A DNA stretch of 51,878 nt from Clostridia bacterium (GTDB taxonomy: Bacteria; Bacillota; Peptococcia; Peptococcales; SKKY01): positions 1-51,878 of the forward strand of contig RZYW01000004.1 in the NCBI GenBank assembly GCA_009930175.1, given 5' to 3'. The notes beneath the pieces are model-generated. The model saw only the letters and a program-made list of their open reading frames with translations. It searched no databases and was not told the origin of the DNA. Below, piece by piece: positions 11,468 through 25,636 of this stretch (position 1 is the stretch's first letter; every line of letters starts with the position of its first letter). A program made the translations under genes and the position numbers.

Positions 11468-13267
11468 ATGTCGGGAGCAAAGAATTTCAAAATAAAACAA
11501 TTTACAATCATCTTCTTAATACTTTTATTTTTGCTGCCTGTAATTTCTTCTTTTGCCTTTGAATATAATTCAGGAATGGAAATAATAAAATTAAAAGGTG
11601 ACTGGGAGTTTTACTGGGAAGAATTGCTTTACCCTGAAGATTTTCATAAGGAGAATTTTCAGGATAAGGGAGTTCTTTTTCCAATTCCCGGAGAGCTTGA
11701 TGGTTATCCATCAGATACATATGGAACATTCAGAACTATAGTTACTGTAGATAATCCAGCTAAAGAATATGGATTAAAAGTACCATACTTTTCCTCTGCC
11801 AACCGTATTTGGGTTAATGGGGAAGAAGTATTTGCATCAGGTGTTGTTAGTGATACCAAGGAAAGCTATATTCCAAAGTATATGCCGGGAGAAGCATATT
11901 TTGTTCCTGGAACTGAGGAAGTAGAAGTGCTTATTCAGATTTCCAATTACCATCACCGGAGAATAAAGCTAAAGAATGTTCTTTTTGGTGATGCAGATGC
12001 AATAAAATCCCTCACTCAAAGAAATCTTATCAAAGAGAGCACCCTTGCAGGAGGGCTAATTCTAATTTCCATATACTATGCTATCCTTTATTTTATTCAG
12101 AATAAAGAAAAAGCCTCAATTTATCTATCCCTGCTTTCCCTTGTTGTTGCTATTAGAGGAACCATTCTTACAGAGAAAATAATTCTCCACCTGTTTCCTA
12201 ATATATCCGGGGAGTTTTTAATGAAGCTGGGATTCTTACCATCATTTTTATTCCTTCCTCTAATTGCTTTATATGTTAAAGAAGTGTTTAAAATAAAAGA
12301 AATTGAAAAACTGGAAGGTATATTGCAAAAATCTGCAATTGCTTTTGTTTTTCTTGTTTTACTCACACCAGGAAAAGTGTATGATTTGGCATTTAATTTA
12401 CTAAACTTTATTTTCGTTCCAGTTGCTTTCTATATTGTTTTTGTAATGTTTTATAATAAGGAATATAGAAAAATGAGGGGATACCGGTTAATGGTATCCG
12501 GCTGCACAGTACTTTTTCTTACTGCTTTAAATGATATTTTAAGTGAATTTGATGTGATAAAAAACCCTGAAATGTTCACAGCAGGTATGTTTATTTTTAT
12601 TTTAATTCAGGCTGTTTTTCTTGCCTGGGAATTAAATCATAACCTTGAAGAAAAAATTAAAGAACGTACTTTTGAGCTTGAAACTTTAAATAAAAAACTT
12701 GAACTATTTTCAAGGATTGATGCCCTTACAGGCCTTTATAACCGAAGAGCTTTTGAAGAAAGATTTGAAGGTGAATGGGAAAGAGTAACCAGGGATAATA
12801 AACCTTTATCAGCCCTGATTTTTGATATTGATTACTTTAAAGATTTTAATGATAATTACGGACATCTTTCCGGGGATGACTGTTTGGTTAAGGTTGCTGA
12901 AACAATTAGAGAATCTGTTTTATTGCCACAAGGTTTTACTGCACGTTTTGGTGGTGAGGAATTTGTTGTACTTCTACCAGAAACCGATTGGAATACTTCA
13001 AAAGATCTTGCAGAAAAAATAAGATTAAATATTGAAGGGCTTAAAATACCCCATAGTTTTTCTCAGGCAGAAAAGCATGTTACAGTAAGTGCCGGAGTTA
13101 CCACTTTGTGCCCTGAAACCAAGAATATTGATAGCAGAGAATTTTTGAAAATGGCAGATAGTTATTTGTATCTTGCCAAAAAAATGGGAAGAAACAGGAT
13201 CGCAGGAAATATAGTTGGGAGTGAAGCAACTTGCGGGAGTCAATTAAAAATGAACTTTTCAGATTAA
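11468..13267 (+). CDS. 7TMR-DISM sensor diguanylate cyclase
   Basis: 599-aa c-di-GMP synthase. A signal peptide/first helix (about residues 11-30) precedes an extracellular jelly-roll sensor domain (about 35-175, GDWEFYW, then IWVNGEEVFASG). A seven-helix 7TMR-DISM region spans about 190-388, followed by a short coiled coil (392-415) and GGDEF. The cyclase motif is FGGEEF (GGEEF 495-499) and looks active; the RxxD inhibitory site is absent (LPQG in its place). GGAAGG before ATG11468. The 3' end overlaps the AlkD-like gene by 37 nt. It probably reports an extracellular carbohydrate-like or unknown ligand. Confidence 0.9.
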   Translation: MSGAKNFKIKQFTIIFLILLFLLPVISSFAFEYNSGMEIIKLKGDWEFYWEELLYPEDFHKENFQDKGVLFPIPGELDGYPSDTYGTFRTIVTVDNPAKEYGLKVPYFSSANRIWVNGEEVFASGVVSDTKESYIPKYMPGEAYFVPGTEEVEVLIQISNYHHRRIKLKNVLFGDADAIKSLTQRNLIKESTLAGGLILISIYYAILYFIQNKEKASIYLSLLSLVVAIRGTILTEKIILHLFPNISGEFLMKLGFLPSFLFLPLIALYVKEVFKIKEIEKLEGILQKSAIAFVFLVLLTPGKVYDLAFNLLNFIFVPVAFYIVFVMFYNKEYRKMRGYRLMVSGCTVLFLTALNDILSEFDVIKNPEMFTAGMFIFILIQAVFLAWELNHNLEEKIKERTFELETLNKKLELFSRIDALTGLYNRRAFEERFEGEWERVTRDNKPLSALIFDIDYFKDFNDNYGHLSGDDCLVKVAETIRESVLLPQGFTARFGGEEFVVLLPETDWNTSKDLAEKIRLNIEGLKIPHSFSQAEKHVTVSAGVTTLCPETKNIDSREFLKMADSYLYLAKKMGRNRIAGNIVGSEATCGSQLKMNFSD

Positions 13268-13960: not shown

Positions 13961-16339
13961 ATGAAAAAACCATCCTCGAAACAAATTTGCTTTTTCCTTG
14001 TAATTATTATGATAAATATTTTGCTTCCATTTTCAGCCCTGGCTCAAGAAAGACCATTATTAATTGTTGGAGATGATGAATATTATCCTCCCTACAGTTT
14101 TGTTGATAAAAATGGAGAACCCGCAGGTTTTAATATCGACTTAATTAAAGCCGTTGCTAATGCAGCAGGTTATGATTTGGAAATACATTTAGATGAGTGG
14201 AGTAAAGTACGAGAAGCTTTGGAAGCAGGAGAACTTGACCTTATAAGTGGCATGGTTTTTTCTGAGGAAAGAGAAGAAATTTACAGTTTTTCATTAAAGC
14301 ACACTGTTAATATTGGGGATGTTTTTTCTTTAAAAGAAAATAAAATATCTAGTATTGAAGATCTCAGAGGTAAAACAATAGTTGTACAGAGAGCGGATAT
14401 TGTGGCTGAATATATGGCTGGTAAGGCAGAAGAACTTGATTTACGCCTTATTGAAGTTACATCAGCAAGGGAGGCCATTCAAGCTGTAAGTGAAGGTGAA
14501 TACGATTATACAGCTTTAATGAAGCTTCCCGGTTTGTATGCTATTAAAGAATATAGCTATTTAAATGTATTTGAAAATAATTTATCTTTAGTTTCCAACG
14601 ACTATGGCATGGCTGTTTTAAAAGGTAATGAAGATTTGTTAATGGAACTAAACAGTGGCTTGCAGATTATAAAGACTACTGGTGAATATGATTTAATATA
14701 TGATAGATGGATTAATATCTATGAAGAAGTTAATGTTTCAGATTTTATAAGCAGATTTTGGTGGATTCCCTTAACTATTGGCTCAACCTTAATAATTTTA
14801 TTAGGAATTTCTGTAACTTTAAGATACTTGGTTAATAAAAAAACAATAGAGCTTGAAGATGCAAATATTAAATTAAAAATGAACGCTGAGGAAATAGAGG
14901 CGAATCTTGAAGAACTTACAGCTATAGAAGAAGAACTTCGAACAAACTATGATCAGATAAGGATTAGTGAGGAAAAAAGAAGAAGAATTATTGAATCTCT
15001 TCCCGATCTTGTTTTTACTTTCTCAAATGACGGAAGAATTACAGAAGTTCATAATTCAGAAGGTAAAGATTTACTTTTACCTAAAGAACAATTTTTAGGT
15101 AAGCATATTTTAGAAGTTATGCCAGAACATATTGCAGTTAAAGCTTTGGAAAATCTTGAAAAAGTATTTGCTGAAAGTAAAATGGAATCCTTTGAGTATG
15201 ATATAGAAATTATGGGAAATATGAAAAGCTATGAGGTAAGAATGGTTAAGTCTGATGATACAGAGTCCCTGGGAATAGTAAGGGATATTACCTCAGATAA
15301 AAAATATCAGGAGAACATGGAATATTTAAGCCACCATGATTTTCTTACAGGTTTATTTAACCGGCACTATTTTGAAAAGAAATTATCTGAACTTGATACA
15401 TTGGAAAATCTTCCTCTGTGTCTTATTATGGCAGATGTTAATGGTCTTAAGCTTGTAAATGATTCCTTTGGCCATAAAGCCGGGGATGAGCTTCTTATTA
15501 AAGTTGGAGATGTTCTAAAAAAGGCCTGTACTTCAGGGGAACATATTTTTAGAATTGGCGGAGATGAGTTCATAATACTATTCTCTATAAAAGAACCAGG
15601 AGAAGCAGAAATTCTAATTGAAAAAATTAAAGAATTGGCTAAAACAGAAAAAATTAAAGCAATAGAGCTGTCTATCTCCTTCGGTTGGGCCTTAAAAGAA
15701 AAAATTGAAGAAGATATTCACGAAGTTTTTAAAGATGCTGAAAATCAAATGTACAAAAGAAAATTATTTGAAAGTCCAAGTATCCGTGGTAAAACAATTA
15801 ATGCTATAATAAATACCCTTTATGAAAAAAATCAAAGAGAGGAAGAACACTCAAGAAGAGTATCTGAACTTGCTTTTGAATTTGCCCAGGTATTGGGAAT
15901 GACGGAGCAGGAAGTTCAGGAAATTAAAACTATGGGTCTTCTTCATGATATTGGTAAAATTGCAGTAAATGAAGGTATTTTAAACAAAGAGGGCAGACTT
16001 ACTGCTGAAGAATATGATGAAATTAAACTTCATCCTGAAATTGGATATAGAATTTTAAGTTCCGTGAATGATATGTCAGATATGGCTGATTATGTACTTT
16101 GTCATCATGAAAGATGGGATGGAAAAGGTTATCCAAGAGGAATTTCCGGTAAAGATATTCCACTTCAGTCCAGAATAATTGCTATTGTTGATGCCTATGA
16201 TGCAATGATAAGTTACCGTACCTACAGAACATCAAGAACAGTTGATGAAGCTGTTGCGGAGTTGCGAAAATATGCTGGAACACAGTTCGATCCAGAGCTT
16301 GTGGAAATATTTATTAAAATAGTATTAAAAAAAGAGTAA
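13961..16339 (+). CDS. Periplasmic-binding/PAS/GGDEF/HD-GYP sensor protein
   Basis: 792-aa transmembrane c-di-GMP protein. Domain order: signal peptide (10-28), extracellular family-3 solute-binding domain (about 31-255, GDDEYYPPYSFVDKNGEPAGF, as for amino-acid binding), membrane helix (about 267-290), coiled coil (295-340), PAS (about 340-445), GGDEF (about 455-605, GGDEF 533-537) and HD-GYP phosphodiesterase (about 625-790). The HD-GYP residues LLHDIGK (660-666) and HHERWDGKGYPRG (715-727) are intact. It could both make and break c-di-GMP in response to an amino-acid-like ligand. AATTGGAGTG precedes ATG13961, 22 nt after the AlkD-like gene. Confidence 0.92.
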   Translation: MKKPSSKQICFFLVIIMINILLPFSALAQERPLLIVGDDEYYPPYSFVDKNGEPAGFNIDLIKAVANAAGYDLEIHLDEWSKVREALEAGELDLISGMVFSEEREEIYSFSLKHTVNIGDVFSLKENKISSIEDLRGKTIVVQRADIVAEYMAGKAEELDLRLIEVTSAREAIQAVSEGEYDYTALMKLPGLYAIKEYSYLNVFENNLSLVSNDYGMAVLKGNEDLLMELNSGLQIIKTTGEYDLIYDRWINIYEEVNVSDFISRFWWIPLTIGSTLIILLGISVTLRYLVNKKTIELEDANIKLKMNAEEIEANLEELTAIEEELRTNYDQIRISEEKRRRIIESLPDLVFTFSNDGRITEVHNSEGKDLLLPKEQFLGKHILEVMPEHIAVKALENLEKVFAESKMESFEYDIEIMGNMKSYEVRMVKSDDTESLGIVRDITSDKKYQENMEYLSHHDFLTGLFNRHYFEKKLSELDTLENLPLCLIMADVNGLKLVNDSFGHKAGDELLIKVGDVLKKACTSGEHIFRIGGDEFIILFSIKEPGEAEILIEKIKELAKTEKIKAIELSISFGWALKEKIEEDIHEVFKDAENQMYKRKLFESPSIRGKTINAIINTLYEKNQREEEHSRRVSELAFEFAQVLGMTEQEVQEIKTMGLLHDIGKIAVNEGILNKEGRLTAEEYDEIKLHPEIGYRILSSVNDMSDMADYVLCHHERWDGKGYPRGISGKDIPLQSRIIAIVDAYDAMISYRTYRTSRTVDEAVAELRKYAGTQFDPELVEIFIKIVLKKE

Positions 16340-16349
16340 GGAGATTTTG

Positions 16350-16706
16350 ATGGATAACTATAACCAAAATGAAAGTCGTGAAATAGAAGATATACTGCTT
16401 AAAGTAAAGTTTAACAAAGAGATTAATGAATTGTACAATGCAATAGAGGGAGGAATGGAAATATATGACTCCATGTTAATTAATATCTTAATTGATCCTT
16501 CTGAGGACAGAGATAATATATTTAAAATTCTTGGAGTTGAAGATGTTGAAGAGCTAAATATTAAAATGTCCCAGGACAGAATCTTTAAGAGAATAATAAA
16601 ACTCTTAGAAGAAAAAAATCTGACCTGGGAAATAAGACAAAATAAAATTCAAGAAAAAACTATTAAAGGTTATATGCTTCAGTTGAAAATTTTATTAAAA
16701 AAGTAG
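16350..16706 (+). CDS. Hypothetical small helical protein
   Basis: 118 aa, family not recognised. It is acidic and helix-rich with no signal or membrane segment. AAGGAG at 16338-16343 supports ATG16350 over TTG16347. It lies 10 nt after the HD-GYP sensor gene and is probably its co-transcribed partner. The 3' end overlaps the convergent esterase gene by 28 nt, and I see no terminator there. Confidence 0.75.
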   Translation: MDNYNQNESREIEDILLKVKFNKEINELYNAIEGGMEIYDSMLINILIDPSEDRDNIFKILGVEDVEELNIKMSQDRIFKRIIKLLEEKNLTWEIRQNKIQEKTIKGYMLQLKILLKK

Positions 16707-17416
16707 GCAACTTGTATACGCCACCAATCCCAATCGTGGTTTACATCATGGCCCCAAAAATCTATCCAGGCTGGAATATTCTTTTCCCGGAATATTTCAG
16801 CCATTATTTTTGTGTCCTTAATGGTATCTTCTTCCCAGGCTCCCTGACCAGAACAAAGAACAATCTGGCTTTCTCTAAACTGGTCAAGATACCAGGGGTT
16901 ATCAAGATTCTTTAAATAATCTGTCGGTGAGTTAATATAAACATCAAAATTCATTTCTTCTCCTGTAAAGTAGCGGATATCATATATTCCACTTAAAGCC
17001 ACAACCGTATCGAAAACATCCGGGTGTCTTAAAAAGAAGTTTAATGCGTGGTAAGCTCCAAGACTACATCCTGTGGTTGCAAATTTCCCTCTCCAGCCAG
17101 TTTCTTCCCTGATTAGAGAGCAGAGTTCATCGTATATATATAAATCATAAAGATTATGTTTTGCCGCTTTTTCAAAGGGATGAATCATGTCATTCATCCA
17201 GCTTTCCTGATCTATGCTGTCAGGAGTATAAACTCTTATTAATCCTTGGTCTATAAAAGGACGCAGGGCATCTATCATTCCAAAATCTTCATATTCATAG
17301 AAACTCCCCCCGGAACTGGGGAAGACTACAACGGGCTTACCAGTATTACCGTATTCTCTAAAATACATCTCTCTGTTTAAATGTTTGCTGTAAAAAGATC
17401 TTTCATTTTTATACAT
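16679..17416 (-). CDS. Alpha/beta-hydrolase (esterase family), partner of ATP-grasp protein
   Basis: 245-aa hydrolase. The nucleophile elbow is GCSLG (Ser118), preceded by VVVFPSSGG (about residues 29-37, oxyanion region). A candidate catalytic His lies in WGHDVNHDWDWW (His223 or His227). No signal peptide, so probably cytoplasmic. Its start overlaps the ATP-grasp gene by 8 nt. The pair suggests that one enzyme forms an amide or ester and the other cleaves, transfers or matures a product. The true substrate is unknown. Confidence 0.82.
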   Translation of the reverse strand: MYKNERSFYSKHLNREMYFREYGNTGKPVVVFPSSGGSFYEYEDFGMIDALRPFIDQGLIRVYTPDSIDQESWMNDMIHPFEKAAKHNLYDLYIYDELCSLIREETGWRGKFATTGCSLGAYHALNFFLRHPDVFDTVVALSGIYDIRYFTGEEMNFDVYINSPTDYLKNLDNPWYLDQFRESQIVLCSGQGAWEEDTIKDTKIMAEIFREKNIPAWIDFWGHDVNHDWDWWRIQVAYFFNKIFN

Positions 17417-18596
17417 CGTACATTGTCCTTTCCAGAATACCTGTTGCTGCTGCCTTTATTTTTGCAAATTCAGGATCTCTTAAGATAAAAGCGTAATCTC
17501 CCATAGATTCAGAATAAAGGGGTGGGAGAGGACCGTGGTAGACAATAATGTCTTTAAATAAGTGGCACACCTCATCAATTGAGTATAGATAGTTTTTATT
17601 ATTTTTTCTTCCAACGAAAGCAGCATAATTGTCATATTCAGGAACCAAAAAGACTTTTTTACCAAGAACAGTTTTGGCATATAAGTCATATAAATCAAGA
17701 CTTGTTGCATAATTGTACATATCTATTGTCATGCCTCCGGGAGGTCTTGAGTTAAGTTCAAGGGCTACATAGCTGCCATCCTTTTTCTTAAAAAATTCTA
17801 AATGGAAAAATCGTTCTTTAATGTTAAACTCTTTAATTATTTTTTTGCCATATTCCACCAAAGGAATTGGTGGAGTTCTTAAGGTGTAATAAAAAACATC
17901 AAGGTCATCTCGTATAATTTCCATAACCCCAATATCAAGATGAAAGGACCCGTGGAAAATAATATTTCCATCCATATCAGTAATCCCGTCAAAGCTTACT
18001 ATTTCTCCATCTATCCATTCTTCCATAATATAATTAAACTTTTCCAGATTTTTTTCATTAAAAAACTTTTCAAGCTCAATATCATTTTCAATTCTGTAAG
18101 TATCTGTTGCTCCAACTCCAATGTCAGGTTTTATACATACAGGGAAACCATTTTTTTTAATAAAATTTAATCCATCTTCCCGGGAATGAATAATTTCTCC
18201 CTTGGCAACAGGTACTCCGGCTTTAATAAATATTTTTTTCATTTCTGATTTTTTCTTAGCAGTAATTAGTGTATCTGGCCGGTATCCTGGAATATTAAAA
18301 TCCTCTCTCAGCCTGGCATCCTGTTCAAGCCAATATTCGTTATGAGATTCAATTCGCTGAATTTTACCATATTTATGAGTAAAAAAACCTACTGCTCTAA
18401 GCATTTCGTCATAGCTCTCCATATTGTTAACTTTATAATATTCATTGAGAGATGCTTTTAATTCAGGCTTTAAATTGTCATATTTTTCAGAGCCAATGCC
18501 AAGAACAACTGCCCCATTAGCTTTTAGTTTTTCACAAAAATGCATATAATTTTCTGGAAAGTTGGGTGAAATAAAAATGTAATTCATATTTTTCAA
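17409..18596 (-). CDS. ATP-grasp ligase-like protein
   Basis: 395-aa protein. An N-terminal Rossmann-like region (about 1-95, starting NYIFISPNFPENYMHFC) is followed by ATP-grasp lobes (about 115-310): VCIKPDIGVGATDTYRI (ATP-binding Lys and glycine loop), MEEWIDGE and the Mg-binding ALELNSRPPGG. This is the carboxylate-amine or carboxylate-thiol ligase fold; the acceptor is unknown. GAAGGAG precedes the ATG at 18596. It diverges from the small gene at 18683 across 86 bp and is coupled to the esterase. Distinct from carB and PurK/PurT by its N-terminal domain. Confidence 0.85.
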   Translation of the reverse strand: MKNMNYIFISPNFPENYMHFCEKLKANGAVVLGIGSEKYDNLKPELKASLNEYYKVNNMESYDEMLRAVGFFTHKYGKIQRIESHNEYWLEQDARLREDFNIPGYRPDTLITAKKKSEMKKIFIKAGVPVAKGEIIHSREDGLNFIKKNGFPVCIKPDIGVGATDTYRIENDIELEKFFNEKNLEKFNYIMEEWIDGEIVSFDGITDMDGNIIFHGSFHLDIGVMEIIRDDLDVFYYTLRTPPIPLVEYGKKIIKEFNIKERFFHLEFFKKKDGSYVALELNSRPPGGMTIDMYNYATSLDLYDLYAKTVLGKKVFLVPEYDNYAAFVGRKNNKNYLYSIDEVCHLFKDIIVYHGPLPPLYSESMGDYAFILRDPEFAKIKAAATGILERTMYDV

Positions 18597-18627
18597 CTCC
18601 TTCAGAAGGAAATTACCCTAATAGATA

Positions 18628-18682: not shown

Positions 18683-18931
18683 ATGAATTATCCTATTAAA
18701 AATCTGGAAGATGTTTATAAATTTTCTTTACCCCTTTATGACTACTTGAATAAAACAGGTCACAAGGAAATGGCAAAAATTTTTGAGGAACTTGTAGATG
18801 ACTGTTTTGACAACGAAAGCCGCTCTCTGGCTGCTCATAAAAAGGCATATAAAAAAGTTCTTGAAGAAGTAGATGGACTTCCAACAGAGATGGTAACTGC
18901 TCTGGAAGAAGCTTTAGATTTAATGAGATAG
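18683..18931 (+). CDS. Hypothetical 82-aa protein
   Basis: Small, acidic, helix-rich soluble protein with no recognised family. A strong AAAGGAGGAG site (18667-18676) lies 6 nt before the ATG. It sits alone between the divergent ATP-grasp gene and the pyr promoter, which begins 4 nt after its stop. It has no terminator of its own, so its transcript may run into the pyr leader. Confidence 0.8.
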   Translation: MNYPIKNLEDVYKFSLPLYDYLNKTGHKEMAKIFEELVDDCFDNESRSLAAHKKAYKKVLEEVDGLPTEMVTALEEALDLMR

Positions 18932-22447: not shown

Positions 22448-25400
22448 TTGCCTATAGATACATCTGTAAAGAAAGTAATGGTAATAGGGTCTGGTCCAAT
22501 AGTAATTGGTCAGGCAGCGGAATTTGATTATGCGGGAACTCAGGCTTGCCGTGCTTTAAGAGAAGAAGGAATAGAAGTAGTTCTTGTAAACAGTAACCCA
22601 GCTACAATTATGACAGACGGAAATATGGCAGACAGAGTATATATTGAGCCTCTTACTATAGATATCCTTGAAGAAATTATATACAAAGAAAAGCCAGATG
22701 GCCTGCTTCCAACTCTTGGAGGTCAGGTTGGTCTTAATCTGGCAAAAGAGCTTGCAGAGGCAGGTATTCTTGAAAAGGCTGGAGTGCGCCTTTTAGGAAC
22801 AAGCCTTGATGCAATAAAAAAAGCAGAAGACAGAGATTTATTTAAAAAATTAATGCAGGAAATAAATGAACCTATTCCAGATAGTGATATTGTTGGAACA
22901 ATAGAGGATGCAGTTCTTTCTGCCAGAAGAATTGGCTATCCTGTAATAATCAGACCTGCCTACACTCTTGGAGGAGCAGGTGGGGGAGTAGCAGAAAACG
23001 AAGAACAGTTAATGGCAATAACAAAAAAGGGACTTCGTTATAGTGCGATAGATCAGGTTTTGATAGAAAAAAGTGTTGCTGGCTGGAAAGAAATTGAATA
23101 TGAAGTAATGAGAGACAAAAATGATACATGTATCATAATTTGTAATATGGAAAATGTGGATCCTGTTGGAGTTCACACTGGGGATAGTATTGTTGTAGCT
23201 CCGGTGCAAACTTTAACAGATGTGGAAAACCAAATGCTGAGAACAGCATCTATAAATATAATAAGATCTCTGGGTATCGAGGGTGGATGTAACGTTCAGT
23301 TTGCTTTAAATCCAGACAAGATGGAATATATAGTTATTGAAGTAAACCCCAGGGTTTCCCGCTCTTCTGCTTTAGCATCAAAGGCAACTGGGTACCCAAT
23401 TGCTAAAGTAGCATCAAAAATCGCTCTGGGTTATCAACTCGAAGAGATTGAAAATAATGTAACGGGAAAAACCAAGTGTGCCTTCGAACCATCCATTGAC
23501 TATGTAGTTGTAAAAATTCCTCGCTGGCCTTTTGATAAATTTAAAGATGGAAATAGAAGACTTGGCTCTCAAATGAAGGCAACAGGAGAAATAATGTCTA
23601 TCGGAAGAACTTTTGAAATAGCATGGCAAAAGGGAATCAGAAGCCTTGAGCTTGATGAAAAATATTTTCTTTCTGACCTCTTCAGAAATTTCAATGAAGA
23701 AGAGCTTGATAATAAACTTCGCTTAGTTGATGACCAGAGAATGTATGCTCTTGGTGAAGCTTTAAGAAGAGGATATACATCAGAAAGAATTAATGAAATT
23801 ACAAAAATTGATTTATTTTTCCTGGATATTCTTAAAAAACTGGTTGATTTTGAAATGGAAATTCTGCCAAAGAATCCAGGTAATATAGAATTGCTAATTA
23901 AAGCTAAAGAGAAGGGCTTTACTGATGAACAAATAGGAAATTCCTGGAATATGACTGAAGAAGATGTTCGCAAAATAAGGGAAAATGCTGGAATAAAGTC
24001 TTGCTTTAAAATGGTTGATACCTGCGCAGGAGAATTTGAAGCGGTAACTCCATACTATTATTCCGGATGGAACGAAACTGATGAATTAATTAAATCAGAT
24101 AGAAAAAAAGTAGTTGTTCTTGGATCTGGTCCTATCAGAATCGGCCAGGGAATTGAGTTCGACTATTGTTGTGTACATTCAGCCTGGGCTTTAAAAGAAG
24201 CTGGATACGAATCAGTAGTAATAAATAATAACCCAGAAACAGTTAGTACAGATTTTGATACTTCAGATCGGTTGTTCTTTGAGCCGCTTACTGAGGAAGA
24301 TGTAATGAATATTATTGATGCTGAAAAACCTGAAGGGGTAATTGTTCAGTTCGGAGGGCAGACAGCAATAAATCTTGCTAAGCCATTACTTGACAGAGGT
24401 GTAAAAATTCTTGGGACTGCGGTGGAAAATATTGATGACGCAGAGGACAGAGAAAAATTTGATGCAATTTTAGAAGAGCTTGAAATTCCCCGTCCTAAAG
24501 GTAAGACAGTAAAGTCTATAGAGGAAGCATTATTGGCAGCTCAAGATTTGGGATTCCCTCTTCTTGTAAGACCTTCCTATGTACTTGGTGGCAGGGCGAT
24601 GGAAATAGTTTACAACATGGCTGAACTTGAAGAATATATGAAATCAGCAGTTAAGGTTTCAAAGGAACACCCTGTCCTTGTTGACCAGTACCTTGTGGGT
24701 AAAGAACTGGAAGTAGATGCAATTTGTGACGGAGAAGGAATTGTTATCCCTGGTATTATGGAACATATTGAAAGAGCAGGAGTTCACTCAGGAGACAGCA
24801 CAGCAATGTATCCGCCTTTTTCTCTGAATGAAGAAATAGAAGAAAAATTGTATGAATATACGAAAAAGATGGCTTTGAGAATAAAAACTATTGGCTTAAT
24901 GAATGTTCAGTACCTTATTCATAAGGGTAAAATATATGTAATTGAAGTAAACCCAAGATCAAGCCGTACAGTTCCATATTTAAGTAAAGTAACTGACATT
25001 CCAATGGTTTCTTTAGCAACGAGAGCAATTTTCGGAGAAAAGCTGCCGGAAATGGGTTATGAATATGGCCTGCAGAAAAAGAAAAAGTTAACTGCGGTTA
25101 AAATGCCTGTGTTCTCTTTCAGTAAACTAATTGATGTTGAAACATCTCTAGGACCAGAAATGAAATCAACAGGAGAAGTTCTTGGGGTTGATGCAGATCC
25201 GAATAAAGCCCTCTACAAGGCATTAATTGCTGCAGGGTATAATTTTAGCAGAAACGGATCAATTTTAGTTACAGTATCAGATAAGGATAAGGAAGAGTCT
25301 CTGGAAATTATTAGAAGATTCTACAATATTGGCTTTAATATTAAGGCTACAGCAGGCACAGCTAAATATTTGAATGAAAATCGTATAAAAGCAGACAGTG

Positions 25401-25636
25401 TTAAAAAAATAAAAGAAGGAACACCTAACGTAGAAGATGTTATAAAAAATGGTGAGATTGCCTTTGTTATAAATACTCTTACAAAAGGTAAGTTACCAGA
25501 GAGAGATGGTTTTAGAATCAGAAGAGCAGCCGTGGAATTTAATGTTCCTTGTTTAACTTCTCTGGATCTTGCCAAGGCAGTATTAAATGTTTTGGAATCT
25601 ATGTCTCATGTAAAAGCACTTCAGGACTATAATTAA
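22448..25636 (+). CDS. carB: Carbamoyl-phosphate synthase large subunit
   Basis: 1062-aa enzyme with the usual internal duplication. Two ATP-grasp halves: [18 protein letters not shown] near residue 15 and [18 protein letters not shown] near residue 560. The carboxyphosphate half contains [20 protein letters not shown], the carbamate half [21 protein letters not shown]-terminal MGS-like allosteric domain (about 935-1062) ends the protein. TTG22448 is supported by AAAGGAG (22432-22438) 9 nt upstream. Confidence 0.97.

Follow-up and report, generated by a model that had tools for sequence, protein, structure and literature searches.

An L-amino acid ligase-like ATP-grasp protein and a predicted cytoplasmic esterase encoded by a recurring bacterial gene pair

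Two overlapping genes of a Clostridia bacterium, one for an ATP-grasp protein and one for an alpha/beta hydrolase, raise the question of whether their products act in one pathway and, if so, which reactions they would catalyze and in which order. We conclude from the analysis of the window (the whole 51,878-nucleotide stretch of DNA that contains them) and of related genomes that the ligase-hydrolase module is real, conserved, and of a recognizable enzyme kind, and that the two proteins very probably form one small pathway.

Gene layout and enzyme families

An earlier note on this DNA had placed two genes with an 8-nt overlap at 16679-18596. Both minus-strand open reading frames (ORFs) and their overlap are present (Table 1), and translational coupling of the two genes across the overlap is likely; as far as the nucleotide sequence can tell, the ligase should start at ATG 18587 in place of TTG 18596, since TTG directly abuts the AAGGAG motif. 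Small unannotated plus-strand ORFs flank the pair (16347-16706, 119 aa; 18683-18931, 82 aa), with homologs in the sister genome only (42% and 54% identity, respectively); the first overlaps the 3' end of the esterase gene, tail to tail, by 28 nt. No riboswitch or RNA element was found in the window with Rfam, promoters were no more numerous than in shuffles, and PADLOC returned no defense match for the pair. The genome encodes a second carbamoyl-phosphate-synthase-like large subunit (G000:C84), besides that of the pyr operon in the window (22448-25636).

Table 1. Features of the ligase-esterase locus in the window
Feature	Position	Strand	Size and basis
ATP-grasp ligase gene, L-amino-acid-ligase-like	17409..18587	minus	392 aa; ORF, Pfam, model
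PF00756 esterase gene, alpha/beta-hydrolase, predicted cytoplasmic	16679..17416	minus	245 aa; ORF, Pfam, model
Overlap of ligase and esterase genes	17409..17416	minus	8 nt
AAGGAG ribosome-binding site	18597..18602	minus	9 nt before ATG 18587; read from sequence

The enzyme classes of both proteins are well supported. The ligase matches ATP-grasp_4 (PF13535) in Pfam above the cut-off (5.7e-10), and the best match in a profile search was RizA (1.4e-23). When its AF2 model (pLDDT 89.8) was compared with the PDB by Foldseek, the top six structures were L-amino acid ligases (Lals), with RizA (1.2e-25), BL00235, and YwfE/BacD best, and biotin carboxylases and PurK came next. All NCBIfam matches scored far below their cut-offs, so that no curated family model (such as NF053745 for BacD) was reached, and the protein is therefore named Lal-like here and not filed as BacD or RizA. 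The model follows the Lal domain plan (preATP-grasp N-terminal, central, and C-terminal domains) and matches RizA along its length; the N-terminal domain, which had been called unusual, is the ordinary preATP-grasp domain of this group. Ten residues (K113, K153, G159, E189, H262, E264, E277, N279, R281, and D289) are common to all members of a 14-sequence alignment (39-58% identity to the window's protein). The same positions are nearly invariant among 130 homologs, in which E189 is replaced by Q in 7 and K113, K153, E264, E277, N279, and R281 are invariant in about 129; the HLE and E-x-x-x-R motifs of RizA line up with E264 and E277/R281. Judged by sequence and predicted fold, the ligase is an uncharacterized family that lies nearest the L-amino acid ligases, and ATP-dependent ligation of the amino-acid/peptide type would be the nearest match for its chemistry.

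The esterase matches Pfam Esterase (PF00756; 6e-11, 43 bits against a gathering score of 22), and its structure model (pLDDT 92.3) has the CE1/FrmB/Ag85 fold. The catalytic set S118, E195, and H227 is intact, with E195 the probable acid of the triad, and Ser118 stands within the GCSLG nucleophile motif that had already been read in the hydrolase. What had been taken for a His-rich C terminus is the loop of the catalytic His, WGHDVNHDWDWW, in which a single His (H227) is conserved throughout the family. An alignment of 10 sequences (37-71% identity) has GCS-x-G and WGxDVxHDWxWW in common, V225 being nearly invariant, and Ser118 and His227 align with those of ferulic acid esterases, FrmB, and antigen 85. 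No signal peptide was read in the N terminus; the esterase should therefore act in the cytoplasm, and its substrate presumably differs from that of its extracellular relatives.

Pairing across bacteria and retention of the catalytic serine

In an evenly drawn phylum sample of 399 genomes, the ligase was found in 12 and the esterase in 10, and all 10 esterase genomes have an adjacent ligase (Fisher p = 2.6e-18). In the order around G258, 19 genomes have the ligase and 18 the esterase, all 18 in common and none with the esterase only. In the phylum sample and in this order, the relatives of the two genes are full-length and always lie next to each other. Family f40 comprises 47 genomes with both, 8 with the ligase only, 9 with the esterase only, and 57 with neither, as counted from two match lists. 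The pair is present in Peptoclostridium acidaminophilum (49%/57% identity), and outside Bacillota both genes are borne by Pararhizobium and Sinorhizobium plasmids. A ligase relative without an esterase match in the stretch examined is found on a Riflebacteria contig and on a Massilia plasmid; in a scan of genome contigs, the Riflebacteria ligase was the only match. The distribution is patchy, since only one of 60 relatives of the window's genome, the other genome of the same genus, has the ligase, and this pattern probably reflects horizontal spread of the pair.

The ligase precedes the esterase in the window, in Peptoclostridium, in the rhizobia, and in the order around G258; the f40 and L024 loci have the reverse arrangement. 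The two proteins show co-evolution: distances between ligase proteins mirror those between esterase proteins (r = 0.87; none of 2,000 permutations was as high), and the two trees are broadly concordant, with the window pair grouping with the sister genome, near Peptoclostridium. The neighborhood survey of both families that the earlier note had proposed finds pairing far beyond chance, by the Fisher test and by adjacency across families. The self-contained two-gene layout suggested there recurs in many unrelated bacteria, with the two genes almost always neighbors, and no third gene is conserved beside the pair across families, an optional second PF00756 esterase excepted. The supposition that such pairs occur in diverse anaerobes holds as to diversity but not as to anaerobe groups alone, given the rhizobial plasmids. 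Neighborhoods of the pair vary between clades and point to no pathway; a histidine-utilization context in Peptoclostridium was considered and rejected, being absent elsewhere. The second esterase is distinct from the first and adjoins the ligase, either with the first or replacing it (L024:7456-8283, L027:10996-11760, L102:7815-8657, L104:5373-6143, and L111:5122-5817).

All 58 distinct ligase-adjacent esterases keep S118, E195, and H227, compared with retention of S118 in 5 of 14 solitary homologs (p 2e-8). In the ligase-free genomes of f40, S118 is lost from eight of the nine esterase homologs, with Asp or Gly in its place (L134, L136-L141, and L146) and Ser only in L135; the serine is likewise retained in the solitary esterases of L142 and L144. 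The eight substituted proteins retain most of the His-loop signature and appear from their sequences to be pseudo-enzymes, and these losses may be a few ancestral events inherited by related genera. The gene after the esterase homologs of L134 and L139 resembles serine O-acetyltransferase in our reading of its sequence. No esterase match accompanies the ligase in the 8 f40 genomes above, in G339, or in G360, and in G094 and G648 the esterase next to it is broken or reduced to a remnant; the ligase therefore does not require the esterase. Incomplete assemblies are among these genomes. G448 bears a deletion scar of the pair, in which esterase residues 1-72 are joined to ligase residues 233-373 (L147:5908-6581). 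Because loss of the nucleophile is largely confined to genomes that lack the ligase, whereas ligases are kept in genomes that lack the esterase, the simplest reading is that the substrate of the esterase comes from the ligase. The pattern suggests that the esterase depends on the ligase, not the reverse, and that it acts on something the ligase makes; as comparative evidence, it speaks for one pathway.

Proposed reactions and alternatives

The reading that we favor, and to which we give slightly less than an even chance, is a two-gene metabolic module in which the ligase makes a product and the esterase then hydrolyzes an ester or thioester on that product or a derivative of it. Like the L-amino acid ligases, the ATP-grasp protein would convert the carboxylate of a small substrate to an acyl phosphate and then couple this to an acceptor amine (or hydroxyl), and the cotranslated cytoplasmic serine esterase would cleave an ester (or thioester) on the ligase product or a derivative, a step that would mature, recycle, or remove the product. 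We infer the ligase chemistry, the small-molecule rather than protein substrate, and the ligase-first order, the last from the dependence of the esterase on the ligase. Of the product classes proposed earlier (a small peptide, a modified amino acid, or a storage compound), the first two agree with the nearest match for the ligase. A storage polymer is unlikely, because the ligase is without a Mur-ligase domain and the matches that it gives are partial, at domain level, and fall well short of the curated cut-off (cyanophycin synthetase TIGR02068, 35.3 against 850 bits, residues 109-195 only).

The two steps might run in the opposite order, with the esterase cleaving an ester or thioester to release a carboxylic acid that the ligase would then activate and join to an amine. 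The loci with the esterase gene first would agree with this, and the optional second esterase would fit varied ester sources; the loci with the ligase gene first, and the dependence of the esterase on the ligase seen in the pattern of nucleophile loss, make it unlikely.

A further possibility, which we consider quite unlikely, is an undescribed, widely transferred pathway that yields a new amide-type metabolite and that some lineages couple to the turnover of cyclic di-GMP. The coupling is suggested by genus g287, in which the ligase carries a fused HD-GYP domain, of the c-di-GMP phosphodiesterase kind, in seven loci (L092-L098, e.g., L092:7946-10339; L097 is cut by the contig end), and esterase, ligase, and HD-GYP genes stand in tandem in another (L099). 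The fusion is a lead from one genus and not a general feature, but it offers a handle on the regulation of the module. A cyclic di-GMP link drawn from neighboring genes of the window (13961-16339, SBP-PAS-GGDEF-HD-GYP; 11468-13267, GGDEF) was rejected; these neighbors are not significant, because the genome has 28 GGDEF and 9 HD-GYP matches.

It is very unlikely that the pair is a low-molecular-weight thiol system, in which the ligase would make a thiol peptide and the esterase would be an S-acyl- or S-formyl-thiol hydrolase like FrmB or esterase D. S-formylglutathione hydrolase (TIGR02821) is the only NCBIfam match of the esterase, and FrmB and esterase D are among its Foldseek matches; against this, TIGR02821 scored 28.8 bits with a cut-off of 281.7, so that no curated NCBIfam model was reached, ferulic acid esterases and also Ag85 outscore FrmB and esterase D in Foldseek, and no additional recurring neighbor gene was seen at the pair. 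We regard as highly improbable a graspetide-like system, in which the ligase would modify a ribosomal peptide or protein and the hydrolase would be a maturation or immunity factor. Such a reading would fit the ATP-grasp enzymes of graspetide loci, which form lactone and lactam links, and the alpha/beta hydrolases that flank some of these loci (PMC8939145), but the ligase is nearest L-amino acid ligases in fold and sequence, not RimK/graspetide ligases, and no small precursor ORF recurs beside the pair across families among ORFs of at least 60 aa. That two unrelated enzymes lie together by chance or local synteny has next to no probability: synteny alone would explain the single case of window neighbors conserved in the sister genome, but the two genes are neighbors in different families and phyla and in either order, and this, with the statistics and the triad-retention pattern, stands against it; the adjacency across families refutes it in practice.

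The literature searched on the pair itself, on COG4947, on operons of Lal and esterase genes, and on fusions of ATP-grasp and HD-GYP domains contained no description of the module, and we found no characterized homologous pair or curated family model, in agreement with the earlier view that such pairs are not known to have a defined function. Generic domain annotation hides a specific, testable ligase-esterase module that occurs in Bacillota families, Peptoclostridium, and rhizobia, with a ligase relative alone in Riflebacteria; its product, once found, would be a new metabolite and would reveal two enzyme specificities that are new as well.

Comparison with known systems

The idea of pairing an ATP-grasp ligase with a hydrolase is shared with cyanophycin synthetase and cyanophycinase, whereas the window ligase lacks the Mur-ligase domain of the synthetase and the window hydrolase has an esterase-type fold, not that of cyanophycinase. 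In graspetide loci, too, an ATP-grasp enzyme may be accompanied by an alpha/beta hydrolase (PMC8939145), but the present pair belongs to another ATP-grasp branch and has no precursor peptide among ORFs of at least 60 aa. With CE1-type esterases (ferulic acid esterases 5VOL and 7XRT, FrmB/S-formylglutathione hydrolase, and antigen 85C), the window esterase has in common the alpha/beta hydrolase fold, an aligned nucleophile elbow, and an HDW-type catalytic His loop; it differs in being only 13-19% identical and predicted to be cytoplasmic, in its GCSLG nucleophile, WGxDVxHDWxWW signature, and likely acid Glu195, and in the pairing of its gene with an ATP-grasp ligase.

ATP-grasp enzymes also catalyze ester and thioester formation and carboxylations. 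The ligase resembles the Lals (RizA, 4WD3; BL00235, 3VOT; BacD/YwfE, 3VMM and 3WNZ) in full-length fold (Foldseek 1.2e-25 to 4e-20, TM 0.71-0.74) and in its biotin-carboxylase-type preATP-grasp domain, and it shares with RizA the aligned HxE ... E-x-x-x-R metal/catalytic residues. It is only 14-20% identical to the characterized Lals, too little to fix the acceptor or the kind of bond that it would form. Unlike the Lals, it has an invariant signature of its own (S-x-N-E-x-W; E-x-N-x-R) and is closely linked to an esterase partner.
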